From the NCBI GenBank assembly GCA_036924285.1, contig JAYKYS010000008.1, forward strand, positions 18,585,001 to 18,649,000: DNA of 64,000 nt, given 5' to 3'. This document shows, piece after piece, positions 2,881 through 58,999 of this stretch. Made by a program: the position numbers and the translations under genes. This stretch comes from Asterella californica. Taxonomy: Eukaryota > Streptophyta > Marchantiopsida > Marchantiales > Aytoniaceae. The notes under the pieces are model-generated. The model was given only the letters and a program-made list of their open reading frames with translations, ran no database searches and was not told the DNA's origin. How positions within the stretch are numbered: position 1 is the stretch's first letter; each line of letters starts with the position of its first letter.

Positions 2881-3205
2881 AAAATGATTTTTTTAAAGAG
2901 ACATTGCATCTATCTTATGTTTTCTGATGCATGATGCAACACACTATTTAAAGTATTTATAAAATTTCCGATCACCCCAACTCCATTGTTGTGTCCGGTT
3001 CATTGAGGTCTTTCTATTTTCCTTTTCACATAAAGTTTGTTTTTTTCTTTCTTCTAACCAAAACAGCACTGTGCGTGCATATTTATTCGGTATTCCTGCA
3101 TCCAGGAAAGATCCAAACGTACAGCTTCAAACGAATGTGACGGACGGACGCGTGAATGGACCTGTCTAACGCTTTTATTTGTATCCTTTTCGTTTGTTGG
3201 TAACA

Positions 3206-3514
3206 TCAGTGTCCAAAGACCTCCAACCACATAGGATCATAGCGGGTACGAAATTTGTCAACCACGTAGCATAGAAACGAACGTAGATTGCCATCACCAC
3301 AACCTGGATTTGAGATGCTAGCAGTTGGTCGGAAGTTGTACGTTACGCCGGTTCTTGGATACGGCCACCCTCCCGGCAGACAACTCACGCCGCATATGAT
3401 TCGTGAAGGATGGCATACTATGCCCTGAGTTATTGAGGATGACAGAGATGCCGTACGATGAATCAGAATATGCTGCTTGCTTGTTTGAAAGAAGGGAGCG
3501 TCTTGTGCCGTCAC
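3206..3514 (-). CDS. Unrecognised small ORF, 102 codons, doubtful
   Basis: I do not recognise this product. It is listed because the stretch is clearly richer in G+C and less repetitive than its surroundings. The peptide contains regularly spaced cysteines and Gly/Pro turns (for example ICGVSCLPGGWPYPRTGV and PGCGDGN), which could suggest a small cysteine-rich domain. No signal peptide is visible and neighbours give no context. It ends next to a 45-bp sequence (3563-3605) that also forms the inverted ends of the 18.5-19.45 kb block, so it may belong to the same inserted DNA rather than be a gene. An exon of a larger gene, a relic or chance are all possible. Confidence 0.2.
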   Translation of the reverse strand: MTAQDAPFFQTSKQHILIHRTASLSSSITQGIVCHPSRIICGVSCLPGGWPYPRTGVTYNFRPTASISNPGCGDGNLRSFLCYVVDKFRTRYDPMWLEVFGH

Positions 3515-12541: not shown

Positions 12542-12613
12542 TGAACTCGACGTGAATCGAACACGCAACCTTCTGATCTGGAGTCAGACGCGCTACCATT
12601 GCGCCACGAATCC
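12542..12613 (-). tRNA. tRNA-Trp (anticodon CCA)
   Basis: On the minus strand a 72-nt cloverleaf folds cleanly. The acceptor is GGATTCG/CGAGTTC (with G-U pairs at 2:71 and 4:69). The D arm is GCGC/GCGC, the anticodon arm TCTGA-CTCCAGA-TCAGA with CCA at 12581-12579, and the T arm GCGTG-TTCGATT-CACGT, with discriminator A. Box A (TGGCGCAATGGTAGC) and box B (GTTCGATTC) are intact. A TTTT run about 25 nt downstream (plus 12515-12518) can terminate pol III. The only departures from the usual plant nuclear tRNA-Trp that I notice are acceptor changes that keep pairing, so the gene is likely functional. It reads UGG codons in cytosolic translation. Confidence 0.96.
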
Positions 12614-30457: not shown

Positions 30458-31256
30458 TGTAAGTCGGTTTGTCTCTCATCCAAAAGTACCTCAGATGACT
30501 AGGATTACTAGTGCACAATAATTACAAAGATTCAGTTACACCCATGCTCACTTCACTCAACTCTCTGATCCGTATGATCACATCGGTCTCTCTAATAACG
30601 TTCCTGCAAACAAGTTCTAATCCCGCTCTCAACATTACTTCGCATAATACTCAAGGACTTCCAAGGTCCCAAGTACTCACTTTACTCATAGATAGGAAAA
30701 TGAGAGTGTCTACCATCCTCTCAACTCCTCCTTATATACTCTACAACTTCTTATTGTGGTAACTTTCACTAAGTTACGTTACCACATGCTAAGTACTCAA
30801 TTCAAAATAGTAAAACTTCTAAAGACTACTAAGACTTAAGAATAGCACACACATTACATGTTCTACTTTACTAAAGTAAGAGATTCTCCTACTTTAGCTT
30901 TTCTAATGTGTTAACTTTTCATACTATCCAGTAGGAAGACGGCAACAAACTAATACGTCTTTTGAGGAGCATCTTTAGATATTTGTGCATGACTTTCCAT
31001 CATGCATCCAATCAGCGATGGTCAACAAAGTTATATACTTTTGAGAAGCATATTTAGAGCTCCGCACTTGTCACATAGGTCATAGTGAAGCCTCTAATAT
31101 TTTCCTCAACTTAGTTATAACTATCTCAGCTAGTTATGCCTAGTTTTGATCACTCTAGATTTGGATCTTCAAAACTAGAGTAACCTTTAAGATAGTCATA
31201 CCTAATGAAATTTGTATAAAGAAACACACAAATAATGGTATACTTGTGGTGTGACA
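30458..31256 (-). mobile_element. 3' LTR of nested Ty3/gypsy element
   Basis: 799 bp; on the minus strand it begins TGTCACACCACAAGTAT and ends CGACTTACA (TG...CA). Identity with the 5' LTR (36646-37200) is about 90% by eye over the shared parts. It contains about 244 bp (roughly 30760-31003) that are absent from the other LTR. The adjoining minus-strand sequence AAGTCTAGGGTAAA could be the polypurine tract. Confidence 0.92.
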
Positions 31257-32649: not shown

Positions 32650-33716
32650 TCATCATCGTAAGCTCTAGGTAGCAAATCTGCATTTACGTGCTTTTTTCTT
32701 GATCGATCGCAGATCTCATAGTCGTACTCCAACAATAAGAGCTTCCACCTTGCTAATCGTCATTCGATCATAAGTTTATTGAAGATGTACTTCAGTGTCT
32801 TATGATCGATAAGAGCATTACATAGATCAAATGACATGACTCGAAATGCAAACGTACCCCACGGAGTAGTAAAGGTAGTAAGGTATTGATATCCGATGCA
32901 ATTTTGATCTAGTTATATCCGCTATAACCATCTCCAAAGGTGTACCATTGGTTTAGCCACTTTTTCGAAGATCTCGTCGATGAAAGTCAGAGGACAATAA
33001 TCCTTCTTTGTGACAACATTGAGCTTTTTGTAATCAACACAAACCCTCAATTTGTCATTTTTCTTCTTTACGATCACAATGGATGATACCCATTCAGAAT
33101 GCTCCATCTTGTAAATAAACCTAGCAGTGTGGAGCTTCTTGATCTCTTCCTTCATCATATCAGCAATTGGAGAACTCACTCTTCGTTGCTTCTGTCGCAC
33201 CAGTTTGACCTCCTTATCCAACTCGATACGATTTTGATCAAGTGTGACCTCCATCAGATCTTTGTAACTAAATGCAAATACACGAATGTATTTGTGGAAG
33301 ATCTCTTCAAAACGACTCTTCTCCTCTTTAGTAACATTCAATCCATAACGTAAGGTGGCAATTCTTCTCTCCACCTCCTCAAGAGTCAACGGTTTTTTAT
33401 CTCGATCTTTTTGTACCTCCAGAGAAGAGAAAAGATCCACTACATTCACACTCACATTTTGTTCTTCTATCTCATCCTCTGACAATATTTTCGGATTCTG
33501 ATTATGAAGAATTGGTACACACATCAGAAGTAGTATCGACAACTTCTGACTCTCAATAGTCCGATGTGGGTCGATCTTATTCTGACGTCTTAACTTGATC
33601 TCCGAGCAATAGAACTTTGATCCGATGGTGACTCGGTCCAATGCATAAATAATCTTTTTGTCAGTTGTCTGTTGCATGTACTGCTCGAAGCCAAGGTCTT
33701 TCAAGTAACATTTCAT
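32650..33716 (-). pseudogene. Reverse transcriptase/RNase H of nested Ty3/gypsy element, catalytic centre deleted
   Basis: The longest remaining frame (33716-32922, 264 codons) includes the RT entry with EEIKKLHTARFIYKMEHSEW then VSSIVIVKKKNDKLRVCVDY and KKLN, matching gypsy RT blocks 1-2. After a frame break, 32880-32810 reads TPWGTFAFRVMSFDLCNA (block 4). It then jumps straight to LIDHKTLKYIFNKLM of RNase H and RLARWKLLLLEYDYEI. The segment that should contain YxDD and the rest of RT is missing, so this copy cannot be active. Order and strand match the other domains. Confidence 0.9.
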
Positions 33717-34194
33717 AACTTGACTCCTTCAAGATTTGAAACGTCATATTTACTTGCACTCTCATTACTAACACACAAACTCTCTCCAGCACTCCCAGTG
33801 GCCTAACTCGTTGTCGGTTAGCCACGCCAACCGTGATACTAGAAAGACGAGTTGATATTAGATCCAACTGAGTCGCTGAGATGGTAGTTACTACTGATCT
33901 TTCGTCCACAAGAACATCTGAGACATCTCTCTCATTGATACGAGTCTCTACTTTTGATGCCTTGTTACACACCTCTCATTCACTAGCATCTAAAGCACTC
34001 ACACCGATAGTAGAAAGACTTATCTTCTTTTTTCGACCTCGTCGGGAGCTTAGACCGGTACGAAGTTCTTTCCTCAATGAAGGATTCAGAGCAATCAACT
34101 GTCCCACAGTAATGTTTACTCGTTGCTTTCCCACGTCTGCCACCACATTGTATTTTGATTGCTCAACTGAAATTGTGAAATCAGTATTTCTCAA
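33661..34194 (-). pseudogene. Retropepsin region of nested Ty3/gypsy element
   Basis: Minus frames 34194-33976 and 33972-33661 give a protease-like stretch: VLVDERSVV in the active-site position (Asp kept, but the usual D-x-G-S is changed to D-E-R-S). It is followed about 60 residues later by MTFQILKESSYEMLLERPWL, the conserved flap-to-end motif (SYEMLLGRPWL in relatives). The frames overlap the start of RT. Confidence 0.8.
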
Positions 34195-36645: not shown

Positions 36646-37200
36646 TGTAAGTCGATCTGTCTCTCACCCAAAGGTACCTCAGAAGACTAGGATTACTAGT
36701 GCACCATAACTACAAAGATTAAGTTATACCCATGCTCACTCCACTAAACTCTTTGATCCGTATGGTCACATCGGTCCTTCTAATAGCGTTCCTGCAAATA
36801 AGTTATAATCTCGCTCTCCACTTTGCATCGCATAATACTCAAGGACTCCCAAGGTCTCCAATACTCACTTTACTCATAGATAGAAAAATGAGAGTGTCTT
36901 CCATCCTCTCAACTCCTCGTTATATACTCTATAACTTCTTATTGTGGTACATCCAATCAGTGATGATCAACAAAATTACATATTTTTTAGAAGCATATTT
37001 AGATCTCCGCACTTGTCACATAATGCCATAGTGAAGCCTCTAATATTTTCCTCAACTTAGTTATAACTATCTCAGCTAGTTATGCTTAGTTTTGATCACT
37101 CTAGATTTGGATCTTTGAACTTAATAACTTATAATATAGTCATACTTAATGAAATTTGTATAAACAAACATACAAATAATGAGATACTTGTGGTGTGACA
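36646..37200 (-). mobile_element. 5' LTR of nested Ty3/gypsy element
   Basis: 555 bp, TG...CA on the minus strand, homologous to 30458-31256 but lacking about 244 bp of it (the junction lies at TTATTGTGGT/ACATCCAATCAG, about 36947). Flanks are GATT on the far left of the element and GATC here; no perfect 5-bp target duplication is left. Confidence 0.92.
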
Positions 37201-41200: not shown

Positions 41201-41815
41201 TTTTAGTTTTTAATTACTTCACGATTGTCGAGCTCAGTGGTCAAGATCTAACGTTGGAAGCATGAAATTCACTAGTAGTGTGTTATGGAGTTTCTAATCT
41301 TGGAGCACATGGCGCCAAAAAAGATCCGATGTTCAATCACGAACCTATAGTCTTGATGTGGTGAAGGATGTTGCAATGAGTGAATGTGAATATCTATCTT
41401 CTGTAGTCGGCAGACATCTTATGTCGATTTGTTTGACCTCGGATCAGTTGACCATATTGCAGAATGTGACGCCAGTTCAGCAGCAATAATTTTTTATGGA
41501 CTCAATATTAGTTTTCAACCTATAACATATTAGTTCTGCACATACATTTAAGATACTAGAAGATCTTTCAATCGTGCGTTGACAAGTGTACTCTAATTTT
41601 AGCTCCAGAACAATCTTACCTTAAGCATGAATATCATCTTTATAGAAATGATAGGTTAAATTCTGAAGAGACCTACAGTTATCGCTTAGTGCATGTTGCA
41701 TTCGCTTCTCATGTGTACAGGTGTTTCTTACTCCTGAAACGTTTGCAAAGAATGTTGAGCTGAACATAGGAAACCATGTGTTACACAACCTGATGTTAAA
41801 TATGCATTAAGATCA
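38231..41815. other. Unassigned AT-rich stretch
   Basis: No supportable gene. It may include the 5' LTR and leader of the host gypsy element, but I could not match it to a second LTR. Short open frames (38446-38736 and 39116-39316, plus) lack recognisable domains. Confidence 0.4.
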
Positions 41816-41821
41816 AAGTAA

Positions 41822-42110
41822 GCACCTGCATATTCACCTCCTCCATCTTCCGATGGAGGAGGCAGACCAGATTAATTTATTTTCCCCTCTTTATTTACTG
41901 CCTTCTGCTTCCAAGGGCCACGTCTCGGGATTTAATCCCCGTCCATTTACTGCCTAACGGTTCCAGTAGCTACGTTCCGGGAGTAAATTTAATGCCCACA
42001 AGGAGCTTTGCTTCCGTGATTAAATTCATTGGACACCGCCTTGCACTGCTGAAGTCTCGGCAGCGACTAGTTTCGAAACAGCACTGCCGCTAGGGGGATT
42101 CATTTGTTCT
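41822..42110. repeat. Two-hairpin repeat family, copy 8, adjoining the Rep gene
   Basis: CTGCATATTCACCTCCTCCA leads into a perfect 11-bp stem, CCTCCTCCATC (41837-41847) with 41852-41862 and a 4-nt loop. The second-stem region is expanded: a segment of about 57 bp (TTTACTGCC ... TTCCA ... CACGT/TACGT ... GGGA ... TTTAAT) occurs twice (about 41891-41940 and 41945-41993). It then closes with GTGATTAAATTCA. The downstream block (CCTTGCACTGCTGAAGTCTC) is at about 42049. This copy is more GC-rich than the others and has sharper stems, as if younger. Confidence 0.75.
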
Positions 42111-42379
42111 CCGTTGGGAGTGACGGTTTTTGCAGTAGATAATTTTCTGCCTCGACGCTGAGCACAGTTCGAATTTAACTTTCACAGTTGACAGAAAAAA
42201 GACCACGGTGGACCAGAGATTTTATTTTCATACCAAAATATTTACATTCCCAGCAAACGTCCACACAGTCCCAGTGCAAGATGGGACACGTTGCAGCTAT
42301 TCTTACGCGATAAACCTGGAAACTCTACTGTCAATCTACTATCTGTGCTAGCTGAACAAGACAGAACTATGAACACACA

Positions 42380-43549
42380 TCAAACTGAAATCGGCTCATC
42401 CAGTTGAAACGCCCACCCTGCATCCATATGCCTCAAGAAGGCACCCAACAGAGGTATATACTCCATTGGTTCCGTGTTGGCAGTCCCGAAGTCAGTGTCT
42501 GTACCAGCAGAAGCATGCATGTGCACAACACGTACTTCCGGGTGCTGCTCAACAACTGCAACAAGCGGATCATTCCAAGTATCCCCCTCGGTGTACCTCT
42601 TTCTGCACTGCCCATAACGTCTATTGTCCTGCCAAAGGAAGATGTTCTGAACGTCTTCTGCAGTGACTTCAGCAGGATGCAAAAATGATTTCCACAAAGA
42701 ATCCAGTCTTCGTTCCTGCATCCCACCCTGAATGAGCCAACGTGGAGAAGCGCTGTACTTCCCAGAAGTTAGCATGGTTCTCAAACAAGTACGGATTGTA
42801 GTAGACAACGGATGAGAGTTCATGTACTTATTAAACTGGAGAGCCCTGGCAAGTACATTCGCATAAGTAAGCTCAACACGATTTTTCGTATCCGCAGCAC
42901 CTAAAAGAAAATACATATCATTGTCATCAATCAGCATGCTCTCCGAAACGTTCTTCATCGTCACATGGTGATACTCCTCCTTCTGATCCTTCATCCAGTA
43001 ACCCAGCATACCAACATAGGTGTGCAAGCCACGATTTGTTAACGACTTCACACAAACCTCAGCGCCCAAAGATTTCTCATGCTGCCAACCCAAAACCGCC
43101 ATAAGCCATTTCTTAACCTGCGGGTAATTTTTCGCATGGATGCACACTATCCCTCGAAAGTGCAGATGAATTAGAGCGCCTCCACACTCGACAGGAAACA
43201 AATCCGAAACACAGTGCTTGTCCAAAAAATTATCCAACAGCGAGAAAAGTTCCAAGTCCAAATCCTCTCCTGTCATACAGACAGTAATTGAGACCTCCAG
43301 ACTTTTCTCAAGAATCGACGCATTGGTCTTTCTCGCTCTTGTCTCCCTCCGTAGAGACATTAAGACGAGATGCCTGAGAGAAGTGAGGACAATGTACCTA
43401 AAGCTCGACGGATCTAGCACAACACACACAAGGCAGACTACGTAGCATATAAATCCCTCATACTGTAGGTTTAAACAAGTTTGCGCTATAACAGTCCAGA
43501 AAACTACTAGGGTAGGTAAACATCTGCTGGTCTGGACCCTGTAGCACAA
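42380..43549 (-). CDS. Replitron-type HUH endonuclease (Rep), catalytic ORF
   Basis: The 389-codon frame carries a Rep-family HUH nuclease domain from about residue 64. A strand EVSITVCM (85-92) is in the motif I position. GGALIHLHFRGIVCIHA holds the HUH triad H128-L-H130 (codons at 43168-43160). GLHTYVGMLGYWMKDQ holds Y184-x-x-K187 (Tyr codon 43000-42998), a single-tyrosine YxxK motif. Then follow KNRVELTYANVLARALQF, LRTMLTSGKYSASPRW and EVTAEDVQNIFLW, which I recognise from the replitron HUH endonuclease family of eukaryotic transposons. Family role: nick DNA and covalently attach its end through Tyr, moving the element through a single-stranded intermediate. No helicase domain, so not a Helitron. 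The first ~60 residues look like non-protein sequence, so the real start may be Met64 (43360) or lie upstream through splicing. The gene is free of internal stops. Confidence 0.82.
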   Translation of the reverse strand: MCYRVQTSRCLPTLVVFWTVIAQTCLNLQYEGFICYVVCLVCVVLDPSSFRYIVLTSLRHLVLMSLRRETRARKTNASILEKSLEVSITVCMTGEDLDLELFSLLDNFLDKHCVSDLFPVECGGALIHLHFRGIVCIHAKNYPQVKKWLMAVLGWQHEKSLGAEVCVKSLTNRGLHTYVGMLGYWMKDQKEEYHHVTMKNVSESMLIDDNDMYFLLGAADTKNRVELTYANVLARALQFNKYMNSHPLSTTIRTCLRTMLTSGKYSASPRWLIQGGMQERRLDSLWKSFLHPAEVTAEDVQNIFLWQDNRRYGQCRKRYTEGDTWNDPLVAVVEQHPEVRVVHMHASAGTDTDFGTANTEPMEYIPLLGAFLRHMDAGWAFQLDEPISV

Positions 43550-43997
43550 GCCAATATGTATCCTCTGTGGTGCTTAAGTACATAAAAGACCCGGATGTAG
43601 CCGCAAAGACACGAGCTACTTTGACAAAATCAGTATCAAGAAGGAAGCGTGGAATATGGTCAGAGAACTGAAGATCCAAGTACACATAGAAGCAGTGTGC
43701 TTCTAACTTTCGAACGTCAAATCCTTGGTGGTTGACTTCATCCAACGTAGGAAAGATAGGAGGGCAACCTAAAGGTATGTACAGATAATCTTCCTCGAAC
43801 CCGGACGAATTGGTAACAGATATGTGAGGACTGACAGCATGAACAGGAGCTTCAGGGCTACAAGGAAGAAGAGGACTTGCTTTTGGACTAGAACCAGGAA
43901 GACCAGTCAGTCTGGAAACAACACTTGCTTCACGAGCAGCAAAGTTAACGAGCTGTCGAACGTATTCATCATTGAGGTAAACAACAGAACAGTACAA
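43458..43997 (-). CDS. ORF upstream of Rep, probable N-terminal part of the same protein
   Basis: 179 codons in another frame, overlapping the Rep ORF by about 90 nt. Composition is protein-like: NDEYVRQLVNFAAREASVVS, a Pro/Ser linker, then YIPLGCPPIFPTLDEVN, HCFYVYLDLQFSDHIPRFLL and DTYWLVLQGPDQQMFTYPSS. I do not recognise a domain. It ends close to where HUH-domain homology begins. A phase-compatible intron can join the two: donor GTTTAA after GCAAACTT (about 43478) and acceptor CTCTCAG before GCATCTCG (about 43374), which has a good pyrimidine tract. A stronger-looking donor (GTATGA) nearby gives the wrong phase. A frameshift in a decaying copy, or a separate protein, are alternatives. Confidence 0.55.
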   Translation of the reverse strand: MYCSVVYLNDEYVRQLVNFAAREASVVSRLTGLPGSSPKASPLLPCSPEAPVHAVSPHISVTNSSGFEEDYLYIPLGCPPIFPTLDEVNHQGFDVRKLEAHCFYVYLDLQFSDHIPRFLLDTDFVKVARVFAATSGSFMYLSTTEDTYWLVLQGPDQQMFTYPSSFLDCYSANLFKPTV

Positions 43998-44360
43998 AGC
44001 ACGAAAAAAGAGAACGATACAAGTCTACATGTACATGGCGGCAGCCTTTACTTACAGCTGCCAGAAGGTCGAAAGTTAGTGAACATCAAAACACACAAGA
44101 CCAGCATGAACAAAATGACAACACATGACAGCGGCAACTCGAATACCACCCGGACGATGAACGGCATGTTCGTCCGCAGCGCAAATGCGGAGGTCACGGC
44201 TTACAGTCCACAGCCCGCATGAGCGCCGTAACCCGTCACAATGACAGCAATGACCCAATCTCAATCGGACCCACAACACATGGATCCCTCGCTGCCGCGC
44301 ACAGACCATGCATGCCGACGAGTCGAAATAGAATTTCCAACACCGGCAACAAAGACGACA
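43998..44360. promoter_or_regulatory. Upstream region of the Rep gene
   Basis: This lies 5' of the minus-strand Rep ORFs. It is GC-balanced, unlike the AT-rich surroundings, and probably part of the same mobile unit. No TATA box at a plausible distance is convincing. Confidence 0.3.
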
Positions 44361-44364
44361 AGAT

Positions 44365-44920
44365 GTGCAAGATCATGTTCTCAATTCCGCCACAGCACGT
44401 CTCAATTTCAGCCGCAGGACGACCGAACAGAACGGACAAGCAACGGCAGCACGTTTCCAATTCGTCCGCATCGAACGAGCAAGAAGAGAAGGAACCCGCG
44501 GCACCGAATCCTACCGCAACACAAGCAAACAGAGAAGAGAAGCAAGCAAACCGAGGTTTCCAATTGTCCCACCCGAAAGAGCAAGAAGAGAAGAAAGCCT
44601 CGACACCGAAGCCTACCGCAACACGAGCAAACACAAAAGACAAGGAAGCAAACCGAGCAGCGGCAGCACGTTTTCAATTCGTCCGTAGGACGAGAGAACG
44701 AAGAGAAGGAAGGCACGGCACTCAATCCTACAGCAACACAGCCAAGCAGCAGCAGCAAATTTTCAAGACCACGAGCACCAAGACAACCAAGCCGCGGCAG
44801 CGAAGAACGGAGAAGCAGCGGCAGTGGTACTGCACTCGAAGACCGCCACGAAGACGGACAAACACGATACTCAACTCTGCCACACCACCAAGACGAACGG
44901 CACTTAACGGACAAGCAGTC
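44365..44920. repeat. Diverged GC-rich minisatellite-like array
   Basis: Motifs recur at roughly 100-110 bp: GCGGCAGCACGTTTTCAATT (about 44446, 44664; variants at 44394 and 44548), GAGCAAGAAGAGAAG (about 44474, 44578; variant 44691) and CCTACCGCAACAC (about 44509, 44613; variant 44727). The array has few stop codons in several frames on both strands, which is why long ORFs arise (including a 333-codon plus frame, 44219-45220). It lies upstream of the Rep gene and ends near 44.95 kb. Confidence 0.7.
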
Positions 44921-45239
44921 ACAGTGAACGGCGGGACGAAGCAGAAACGGCCAGAGCGTCGTAATAAACTCGCGACGCGTTTAATGCAAGTCGTTAATTT
45001 CAATTCAACGTGCACATCGTTCACCACAAGTCCGTCCTGCCTCTACCGGACCTCATCATACCTTGTATATTTTGTCCCGAAGCTGCCGGTTGTCCTTTTC
45101 CTCGGGCTGCCGCGGCAATCCATCAGCATGCATATTAGGTGCCCTTCAACTTCGACCATGTTTGCTACAGGCTGGTTTTTTACAGGACGTCGTGTACTGG
45201 GACGATATAGAAAGAGGTAAAATCGATATAATTTATTTT

Positions 45240-47890
45240 TTATGACTCGTGGTTATAGCCTACACATATGAGATCCACGAAAATGATCTAGTCGTGAGTT
45301 TGCAGCTTCTTACCATTTTCTGTTTTATTTTGTTTCCTGTAACATAAACTGTATTCTCTGTGGATTGATTACTTACCAACGTGATACATATAAATCTCTG
45401 TAAAAAAAGGATCGAAAACTGAAGAAGAATGTTTAGACCAAGTTTTATGAATGGAGATTCTGTTTTTGTCCTCCGCTCCGACGGCAAACCGGTTAATTAC
45501 GCGTTTACTTTGAAATTTTCTGTATCTGTCATTTCTTTTCTGAAATGAGCAAGAAGCAAAATCCAACACAAAGAGGTCAATTTTTGAGGGAAACGCGAAC
45601 GCATAGGAATGCCATGTGAAGCTGCCATGCGCAAAACATTATGTGTATCTTTCAAAGATAAACACATCATGGATATAAGCATTACAATGAAAAAATATAG
45701 TACAACTCTTGCAAGGGAAAAAGTGCAAGGATCATCATCTAATTAAAAATACAAAATTGAGAGTAATGGATTACTGAAATAGTTAGAAATCATTTTAATA
45801 CAGGATACTTTATGAATCCGATAACCAAAAAAGAATTACTAAATCTATTGTTATGTAATGTGAATATATATGCACATTTAGTGGCTTTTTTTATAGTGAA
45901 AGGCTTGTTTCATGCTATAGGGGAGAAGTAAATAAAACGCAACATGTACTTTGGCTATGACTGGTTATTGTCAATAGCTTTTTATATAGAGGTGGATTCT
46001 TGGAAACACGAGGTGCATTTCACTAAGATTTAACTACATTGAGTAATAAGTGCATGATCTATGTATTTACACTTTTGTGTGATTACTTCGCAGAGTAATG
46101 TCTCCACAAAAAAGAAATCAGTATAGACGCTCACATGACGTAATAAGGTACTAACTTCAGTAGCTAAATACAACCTCCTTCAAACACGATATGGCAACTT
46201 GTAGTATATTGAAGAAGTTCAAAATTTGTATCGAGGATTCTCTTAAACATTATGTTGTACTCCTTCTTTACCGCTGATTTTAAGAAATAATGAGAAAAGT
46301 GTTAGGTGAGCCAATGTTTTATCTTTACTCTCTAGATATTCTCTGCATATTAAGTTGAATTTTTTCGTATGATAATCTGAAAACACAACGAGCCAAGTGT
46401 TAGTGAGTCAATTATTACATCGTTGTAACATAGCATTCATGTCTTATAAGATTAGGATGCATAAAAGTAGTTTATTGAAGATTATGGTTTTTAATATATC
46501 GGAATAATTTCTTTCACAGTGAACTGTCAGTGTTTTATGATATAAGTAAATAAAGTGGAAATCATAAATTCATAATAATAATTTACATTTATGAAAATAT
46601 AAGTGTATACTTGATAGCAGAATCCAAAAATATGAGTCAAAGAACTATTACTACTAAATCAGTTGACTAATAAACACAATTTTGGGAGACATGTATCCTC
46701 TTTGACTTATTTTTATTGTTCTTTGTGACAAGTCATGTTTGGTACTGAACAAGTATATATGATAATGATATTAAACATATTAACTAGCATTAATAGTAAT
46801 ACATAATATTTGATGATATATTCATAATATTTGTATTTTCAAATTATGATTTTATTTGGGAATCATTAATTTTAGTTTCATGTGGATATGTTTTCTCTAG
46901 AAAAAAAAGTATACAAATAAAGGTTTGTACCTAACTCAAGAGGTGATCACAATATACTAAGATGTAATCTTATAACTAAATATTAAGTATTTAGTTTTAG
47001 AGATTGATTTTTGATATCTACAGATAATAAAATCTAAATATTTATTAAAAACAATTATATACTTGCCAAATACCATAATATCATTTCAATAAAGTATTGA
47101 ATATCTTTAAATTCTTCCCTCCAGCATGATGAATTGAATTACTTCTCTACTTTTATTTTGTATTATGAAAAACATTTAGAGGACAAGCTCTCATATCCAT
47201 TCAATCGAAGCATACATAAACTTCATAAGAAGTGTAGCATAAGAAAAGTTATATCATAAGCATATATGCATATATATTCTTCTACTCGTCATGTTGGTCA
47301 TATGTGATCCTCTTAAATTTATTTTACGTACTATTTTGCACTTGATCCATAGTACGTAAAGTATGAACTATACTTATCTCTCAAATCTTTGATCATACGA
47401 CCAATGACCACACGTTACTTCTGTTAACTTAATACAATTGATTGTGTGTTTATATTTGTTTGTATTTTCATGTTTTTAATATCAACATCGGTTAAAATTC
47501 TTAAGATATGGAGTTGCGACTGTGGAATCCATGAGTCTATACTTAGGAGTTGTGAGCTACTGTTTTATTTTCTTTATATTTTAAGATCTATTTCAATATT
47601 AAATATTTTCTCATGAATATTATCTTATAACTTTTTTTATGGGTACTTCGAGGTACAATCATTGTTTAATAATCTATCCACAAGTGACATCTTTGATTGA
47701 ATTTATATAGAACATTATAATGATATTTTTTTCACTTTTTGTTTAGGATGATGAGAGGACCTGATAGTCATCATTTTTGAAATTATTCAACTTTTGAAAT
47801 TCATGTGCATTTATTTTCTCAACTATAATTTGTACATGAATTCTAAGGACGAATTTACACCACATAGGTCTAAGCTATATATTGTTCCAT
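45240..47890. other. AT-rich non-coding stretch
   Basis: No gene, RNA or clear repeat found. Very AT-rich from 46.2 to 47.9 kb. Confidence 0.5.
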
Positions 47891-58637: not shown

Positions 58638-58940
58638 CATGGCCCAGGAAAAGGTTTCTGAGGTTCTGCAACTAAAAGGGAGTCTGAGAAAACTGGGATT
58701 TTTTATGGGCTCACAACCAGTACCTTCCTGTTTTCAGTCTGAAGTTCTCAAGTCGGCAGCCTCAACTGTAAACACAGATATTTCCCGAGCATGGCCAGAA
58801 AAAGGTTTCTGAGGTTCTGCAACTGAACGACAGTCTCAGAAAACTGGGTTTTTTTATGGGCTCACGACCAGTACCTTCCTATTTTCAGTCTGAAATTCTC
58901 AAGTCGGCAGCCTCAACTGTAAACACAGATATTTCCCGAG
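58638..58940. repeat. 152-bp direct tandem duplication
   Basis: Units 58638-58789 and 58790-58940 are highly similar, with long identical runs such as AAAAGGTTTCTGAGGTTCTG, ATGGGCTCAC and CTCAAGTCGGCAGCCTCAAC. This is a fairly recent duplication about 1.2 kb upstream of the TMEM131-like gene's first ATG. A small frame (58618-58812) runs across the junction but looks incidental. Confidence 0.92.
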
Positions 58941-58999
58941 CATAGGGCAGGCAGCGACAGGTGAAACGAGTTGAAAAGAACTTTACGTGGTGAAGATGA

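Follow-up and report, generated by a model that had tools for sequence, protein, structure and literature searches.

A Replitron in Asterella californica with an open HUH frame beside a broken companion frame

An open reading frame (ORF) with its motifs in place raises the question of what it attests: a transposon that can still move, a gene that the host has taken over, or a copy in which decay has not yet introduced a stop codon. The locus considered here lies in a 64,000-nucleotide stretch of Asterella californica DNA (hereafter the window; GenBank assembly GCA_036924285.1, contig JAYKYS010000008.1, positions 18,585,001 to 18,649,000, forward strand), in which a preliminary description, made from the letters of the sequence, had pointed to a Replitron-type HUH endonuclease gene at 42380-43549 that was "apparently intact" and "could be mobile or co-opted". 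Replitrons, whose original description is reportedly that of Craig (PNAS, 2023), are a eukaryotic transposon family with an HUH (Rep-type) single-strand nuclease. The analysis set out below leads to a different view of this locus: in all likelihood it is an autonomous Replitron copy that is old and has decayed.

The nuclease itself is readily recognized. The frame at 42380-43549 (minus strand) runs for 389 codons without a stop from a TTG start, and its translation matches the Pfam model PF21859 (Replitron_HUH) over residues 88-206 with 30.3 bits (E 6.1e-7), above the cut-off of 28.5 bits; Replitron_HUH matches were found in none of 14 control genomes. The HUH motif is present as His-Leu-His (H128-L-H130 in the 389-residue numbering; 43160-43168, minus strand) and the YxxK motif as Tyr-Trp-Met-Lys (YWMK; Y184 and K187; 42989-43000, minus strand), with its Tyr and Lys invariant across the 10 sequences of one alignment (A2). 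The identification of a Replitron-type HUH gene in an open frame with these motifs is thus borne out by the profile match, as it is by the element ends and by the HUH-like fold of a moderate-confidence structure model, both described below. Downstream of the HUH domain, the model for the C-terminal part, PF21860 (Replitron_C), reaches 12.5-13.0 bits against a cut-off of 27, a mere hint and a point of difference from Replitrons. The profile search that had been proposed for the region up to 43997 meets a second frame there, of 179 amino acids (aa), whose single Pfam match at E values up to 10 (E 0.26) is below cut-off. A phmmer search of a protein collection with the reported ORF returned nothing at E <= 0.001, but the host relative L030 and the profile A2 did find homologues; the first 63 residues of the reported ORF, non-coding on the argument that follows, may have contributed to the empty result.

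That argument concerns the start of the gene. When L009, as the window copy is designated, is aligned with 19 relatives from the places that score best in the host genome (L010-L028), an ATG at 43360, which is residue 64 of the reported ORF and opens the peptide MSLRR or MFLRR, is kept in all 20 sequences as well as in the diverged copies L029-L031. On this conservation it is most likely the start of the HUH gene, which would then span 42380-43360 (minus strand) and encode 326 aa before its stop, with the Replitron_HUH domain at residues 25-143 (42932-43288, minus strand; PF21859 E 4.3e-7, 30.8 bits). The preliminary description was therefore right that 42380-43549 is open and wrong about where the gene begins. 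Residues 1-63 of the reported ORF (43361-43549, minus strand) are, as judged from codon-position variation and the relatives' translations, an out-of-frame (+1) shadow of an upstream frame, ORF1, because ORF1 of the relatives runs through the start position of the reported ORF.

Codon-position variation in the 20 copies resolves two consecutive coding frames, ORF1 and then the HUH frame, which overlap: in L016 the HUH ATG precedes the end of ORF1 by 65 nt. Within this overlap, single-base codon differences among 16 copies (L009, L022, L025 and L028 excluded) amount to 16 non-synonymous and 21 synonymous in the HUH frame and to 25 and 7 in ORF1, so that constraint is stronger on the HUH frame there. 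Two other ways of connecting the frames were considered. For an intron, inspection by eye gave no convincing donor or acceptor, and coding-type variation continues without a gap across the frames. The TCC-TGA of L010-L012 raised the possibility of a programmed +1 frameshift, but other copies have their stop at different positions, and from its ATG onward the HUH frame is already under the stronger constraint, so that a separate HUH start is the simpler explanation.

The upstream frame encodes a recognizable domain, which in some copies is joined to the nuclease. L030 and L031 carry an N-terminal part and the HUH domain fused in single open frames of 514 and 490 codons. In single comparisons, the window ORF1 remnant aligns with the N-terminal part of L030 at 34% over 109 columns (E 8e-12), and that part of L030 in turn matches two proteins of the liverwort Riccia sorocarpa, P0001 and P0017, at E 2e-9 and 2e-10. 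The N-terminal part is therefore a real domain of the family rather than noise. No Pfam model exceeds its cut-off on it, either in the window remnant or in that part of L030 and L031. Throughout L010-L031 (about 43300-43990 in window terms), this domain shows blocks like FLYIPLGFPPIFPTLDEV and FDTDFVKVARVF, beside the HUH gene or fused with it. The window's own ORF1 (43458-43990, minus strand), read by comparison with the relatives' frames, is a broken remnant: its reading frame is shifted close to the start, a TGA stands at 43460-43458 where 16 of the 19 relatives read past, and deletions of 2 nt and 1 nt just downstream of this TGA occur in the window copy only, among the 20.

Because the ends of the element could be located, the finding was widened from the ORF to the whole element, 3,316 bp at 41821-45136 (minus strand), where homology to other copies ends. 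The 5' end, at 45136, starts with AATATGCATGCTGATGG and is matched in 19 of 19 relatives; the 3' end, at 41821 or perhaps 1-2 bases beyond, consists of a hairpin and then GTGAATATGCAGGTGCT, and a hairpin-type 3' end was located in part of the relatives. Comparison of the ends reveals an 8-bp direct terminal repeat, AATATGCA, at 45129-45136 (minus strand), where TGCTGATGG follows it, and at 41827-41834 (minus strand), where GGTGCT does. The 3' subterminal hairpin (41837-41862, minus strand) has a stem of 11-12 bp and a 4-nt loop; its folding energy as single-stranded DNA is -13 kcal/mol versus -5.3 kcal/mol for shuffled sequence (z -4.2, with none of 200 shuffles as good). The 5' end folds no better than its shuffles (z 0.29). 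No terminal inverted repeat was found: of the 16 inverted pairs of at least 11 nt in 41500-45500, none joins the ends of the element. GC content is about 0.45 within the element versus 0.37 and 0.28 in the adjoining 2-kb blocks, and the 5' non-coding part holds an imperfect direct repeat of three 94-nt units spaced by 102 and 115 nt (44439-44749). At the window copy no target-site duplication was found, and a search for its empty site matched just the copy's own two flanks.

Passages of PMC10741241 record Replitrons from liverworts, mosses, lycophytes and ferns and give short direct terminal repeats of 5-11 bp as a criterion; the further criteria are the lack of terminal inverted repeats, a length of 900 bp to 4 kb and a target-site duplication of 2-8 bp. 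By the features tested the window element is a Replitron: its HUH domain scores over the cut-off, no helicase and no terminal inverted repeat were found, it has the 8-bp direct repeat and a length of 3.3 kb, and close relatives occur in a liverwort and a fern. Besides the weak C-terminal match, it differs in that the N-terminal domain of the host subfamily occupies a second, overlapping frame and in that target duplications are non-uniform.

What the open HUH frame signifies depends on the changes that the window copy has accumulated. With L010 as the point of comparison, L013 and L014 agreeing as outgroup and 11 ambiguous sites dropped, 38 non-synonymous and 19 synonymous changes in the HUH frame are private to it. 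Neutral placement of the same 57 changes yields 41.8 +/- 3.2 non-synonymous (P(<=38) = 0.15). A rough yardstick, a 300-nt stretch of the HUH frame in 16 copies, has 48 non-synonymous and 135 synonymous single-base codon differences, and 38/19 versus 48/135 gives a Fisher P of 7e-8 for counts of non-independent events; likewise as non-independent events, distant pairs show 34/100 (L010-L016), 32/104 (L016-L017) and 14/78 (L015-L017). On PF21859, L010 (51.3 bits) and L013 (52.0 bits) outscore the window copy by about 21 bits. The private changes look like neutral drift, that is, like plain decay rather than kept function. Two comparisons weigh against this reading: 38/19 does not differ significantly from the L010 branch alone (10/12; P 0.12), and L017-L020, a near-identical pair, stands at 3/1 too, as young copies may. 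Neutral placement introduces 2.2 stops on average and leaves the frame stop-free in 10% of 5,000 trials; since the family is large and the probability of remaining stop-free at this divergence is about 0.10, the open HUH frame is most simply put down to luck.

An intact autonomous Replitron that moves itself, its 326-aa HUH protein sufficing and ORF1 being dispensable, is accordingly a very unlikely description of the locus. Its HUH frame is open with motifs kept, its ends look complete, and the overlap counts put the greater constraint on the HUH frame, all of which would suit such an element; yet the near-identical copies for which the genome was to be searched did not appear, the closest relatives reaching just 81% protein and 85% DNA identity, so that no recent offspring is seen; the private changes fit neutrality, several of them at positions that look constant in relatives; and the profile score is 30.3 versus 51-52 bits in two close relatives. 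"Apparently intact" does not describe a copy whose ORF1 is broken at several places and whose private substitutions look neutral. Nor is there support for a gene that "could be mobile or co-opted" in a broken companion frame, neutral-looking changes and a frame that luck would leave open about one time in ten. Domestication of the HUH gene for a cellular function of the host is barely credible: the open frame beside a broken one is all that would speak for it, and against it stand the neutral non-synonymous/synonymous pattern and the position of the gene within an element that still has both its ends. As an old, decayed Replitron, the window copy has most likely lost the ability to produce a functional transposition system itself; with ends that look complete, it might still be moved by the proteins of other copies. 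The lesson is that in a many-copy family well-preserved motifs in an open frame say little about function.

Other elements that use an HUH nuclease share traits with this one. Helitrons have an HUH nuclease and a hairpin near the 3' end, and the ends of Helitrons and of IS200/IS605 elements bear a hairpin together with a nick-like motif. The window element resembles Helitrons in its nuclease and its 3' hairpin and differs from them in its direct terminal repeats; no Pfam helicase domain was found on the HUH frame, the adjacent frame or the fused relatives L030 and L031. A first structure model, from 7 sequences, was too poor (predicted local distance difference test, pLDDT, 44.5), and the Foldseek search made with it was not used. 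The later model, of moderate confidence, has a strand and helix order that fits the HUH fold, and the best VIA rows are Rep and E1 domains; its fold neighbours are the Rep nuclease domains of CRESS-DNA (circular, Rep-encoding single-stranded DNA) viruses and the DNA-binding domain of papillomavirus E1, without a significant sequence match. The fold prediction that had been called for thus agrees in the order of its elements, but the helix carrying the Tyr has a pLDDT of only 56-66, which leaves the adjacency of His and Tyr tentative. Sequence comparison with solved structures gave no significant match, the sole match being to the protein SDA1 at E 0.39, and two peptide patterns each run against viral and prokaryotic contigs picked out 14 and 33 stretches, among which no relative was confirmed. 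That the locus is a Helitron, a CRESS-virus Rep or an IS200/IS605-like insertion has next to no likelihood, the viral fold neighbours and the hairpin with its nick-like motif being outweighed by a Pfam match to Replitrons, by a scan of the frames that found no helicase and by terminal direct repeats that fit Replitrons as passages of PMC10741241 present them.

Profile searching retrieved 18 homologues from outside the host, 16 in Riccia sorocarpa, one in the fern Adiantum nelumboides and one other; the nearest protein relatives that came to light belong to a liverwort. The Riccia Replitron HUH proteins (P0001-P0011, P0013, P0014 and P0016-P0018) are 25-46% identical to the window protein over the HUH domain and downstream, and P0001 and P0017 have, in addition, the stretch noted above that matches the N-terminal part of the fused L030. 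The first His of the HUH motif is replaced in most of these homologues: it is Asn in 12 and Lys in one of the 13 readable Riccia proteins, and over all 15 readable outside homologues Asn in 13, Lys in one and His in one, compared with His in 21 and Gln in one (L029) of 22 readable host copies. Both His residues, proposed as a mark of intactness, are indeed present in the window copy, but with Asn so frequent at the first of them their value as such a test is doubtful. Alignments A1 and A2 show a further, invariant His, in LHTYVGMLGY, which might matter for metal binding.

The 516.7-Mb assembly (773 contigs) carries chlorophyll a/b-binding genes, the best of them LHCII-like in sequence, as expected of a green plant; the chlorophyll-binding family was also matched in one of 14 control genomes, that of a cyanobacterium. 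The assembly holds a sizeable Replitron family. One genome search scored 106 related places of 3,952 candidates, many of them with stops. Another, with PF21859, scored 150 places of 1,557 first-look candidates; the places listed exceed the cut-off, and the window copy, which scores lower, is not among the places listed. Three copies from different contigs (L010-L012) match one another at 99.7-99.9% identity across about 3.1 kb, which suggests that their lineage moved recently.

The 3' ends are more numerous still: their motif, GATGGAGGAGGTGAATATGCAGGTGCT, has 348 occurrences in the genome when up to 2 mismatches are allowed, and none in the control. A sample of 20 exact GATGGAGGAGGTGAATATGCAGGTGCT places was drawn (L034-L053, the first listed minus two beside known HUH copies), with about 600 bases taken upstream of each. 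In 15 of the 20 a 5' end, AATATGCATGCT[G/A]GAT, lies 300-380 bp upstream; L047 has a related 5' end at 613 bp, and four have none within the stretch. These short elements form a non-autonomous family whose 3' hairpin end is that of the window element and whose 5' end is AATATGCATGCTGGATGAACTCC or close to it. They have no room for a nuclease and are presumably moved in trans.

Flanking sequence suggests where such elements land. TG stands directly 5' of AATAT in 8 of 20 HUH elements (expected 0.075 each; P 6e-5), element starts having been found with an AATAT-containing pattern and BLAST alignments ending at the same base or at most 4 bases off. Beyond the 3' ends of the 20 sampled elements, the commonest letters (a majority or plurality) spell C followed by TGAATA, whose bases are each present in 10-15 of 20, with the exact TGA in 6 of 20. 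L012 lies within one unit of a tandem repeat whose neighbouring unit is empty, so that AAAGATGAATATTCAC can be set against GGATG-element-TGAATATCCAC. L026 (about 2960-3015, element sense) and L023 (about 3246-3330, element sense) are Replitron copies inserted precisely where other Replitron-like elements end in their 3' terminal AATAT. Duplications in the relatives are not uniform: TG or TGAATAT for L012, GTGTG(AATA) for L019 and, by eye, TGTC for L016; two insertions at L023 suggest a duplication of 16-17 bp, and several other relatives show none. A script flagged seven of the 16 short elements for which there was a candidate 5' end; four of these matches reflect just the element's own AATAT start, while L038, L045 and L046 include letters of the flank.

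These observations suggest that the HUH nuclease would cut at TG^AATAT, both next to the hairpin and in similar-looking targets. In the scheme envisaged, the Tyr of YxxK would nick one strand at TG^AATAT, next to the 3' hairpin, and at the corresponding 5' repeat; the nicked single strand would then be displaced or copied and joined into a target resembling the same motif (TGAATA). We tentatively put forward, as a possible account of the whole family, a two-protein system encoded in overlapping frames, an N-terminal-domain protein and an HUH nuclease initiated at its own ATG 65 nt before the first frame ends (the two being fused in other subfamilies), in which the nuclease cuts TG^AATAT by the 3' hairpin at element ends and in targets, elements land in look-alike sites that include the 3' ends of their kin, and hundreds of derivatives of about 360 bp are mobilized in trans. 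Three features are possibly new: the overlap of the two frames, the target motif and, in Riccia, the Asn that replaces the first His. Taken alone, the window copy is unremarkable, a decaying element of a family that has already been recorded in such plants; the more than 100 Replitron nuclease copies and remnants, three of them near-identical, with hundreds of common 3' ends and a readable target motif, offer concrete cases in which Replitron cutting and insertion can be tested.

Elsewhere in the window, a frame at 32922-33728 (minus strand) matches a Ty3/gypsy reverse transcriptase (Ty3 reverse transcriptase 4ol8, E 1.2e-5) and is flanked by direct repeats at 30458-31256 and 36646-37200, about 90% identical, which may be long terminal repeats. 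A tRNA-Trp gene lies at 12542-12613 (minus strand), and a tandem direct repeat of about 160 bp, 92% identical, occupies 58638-58950.
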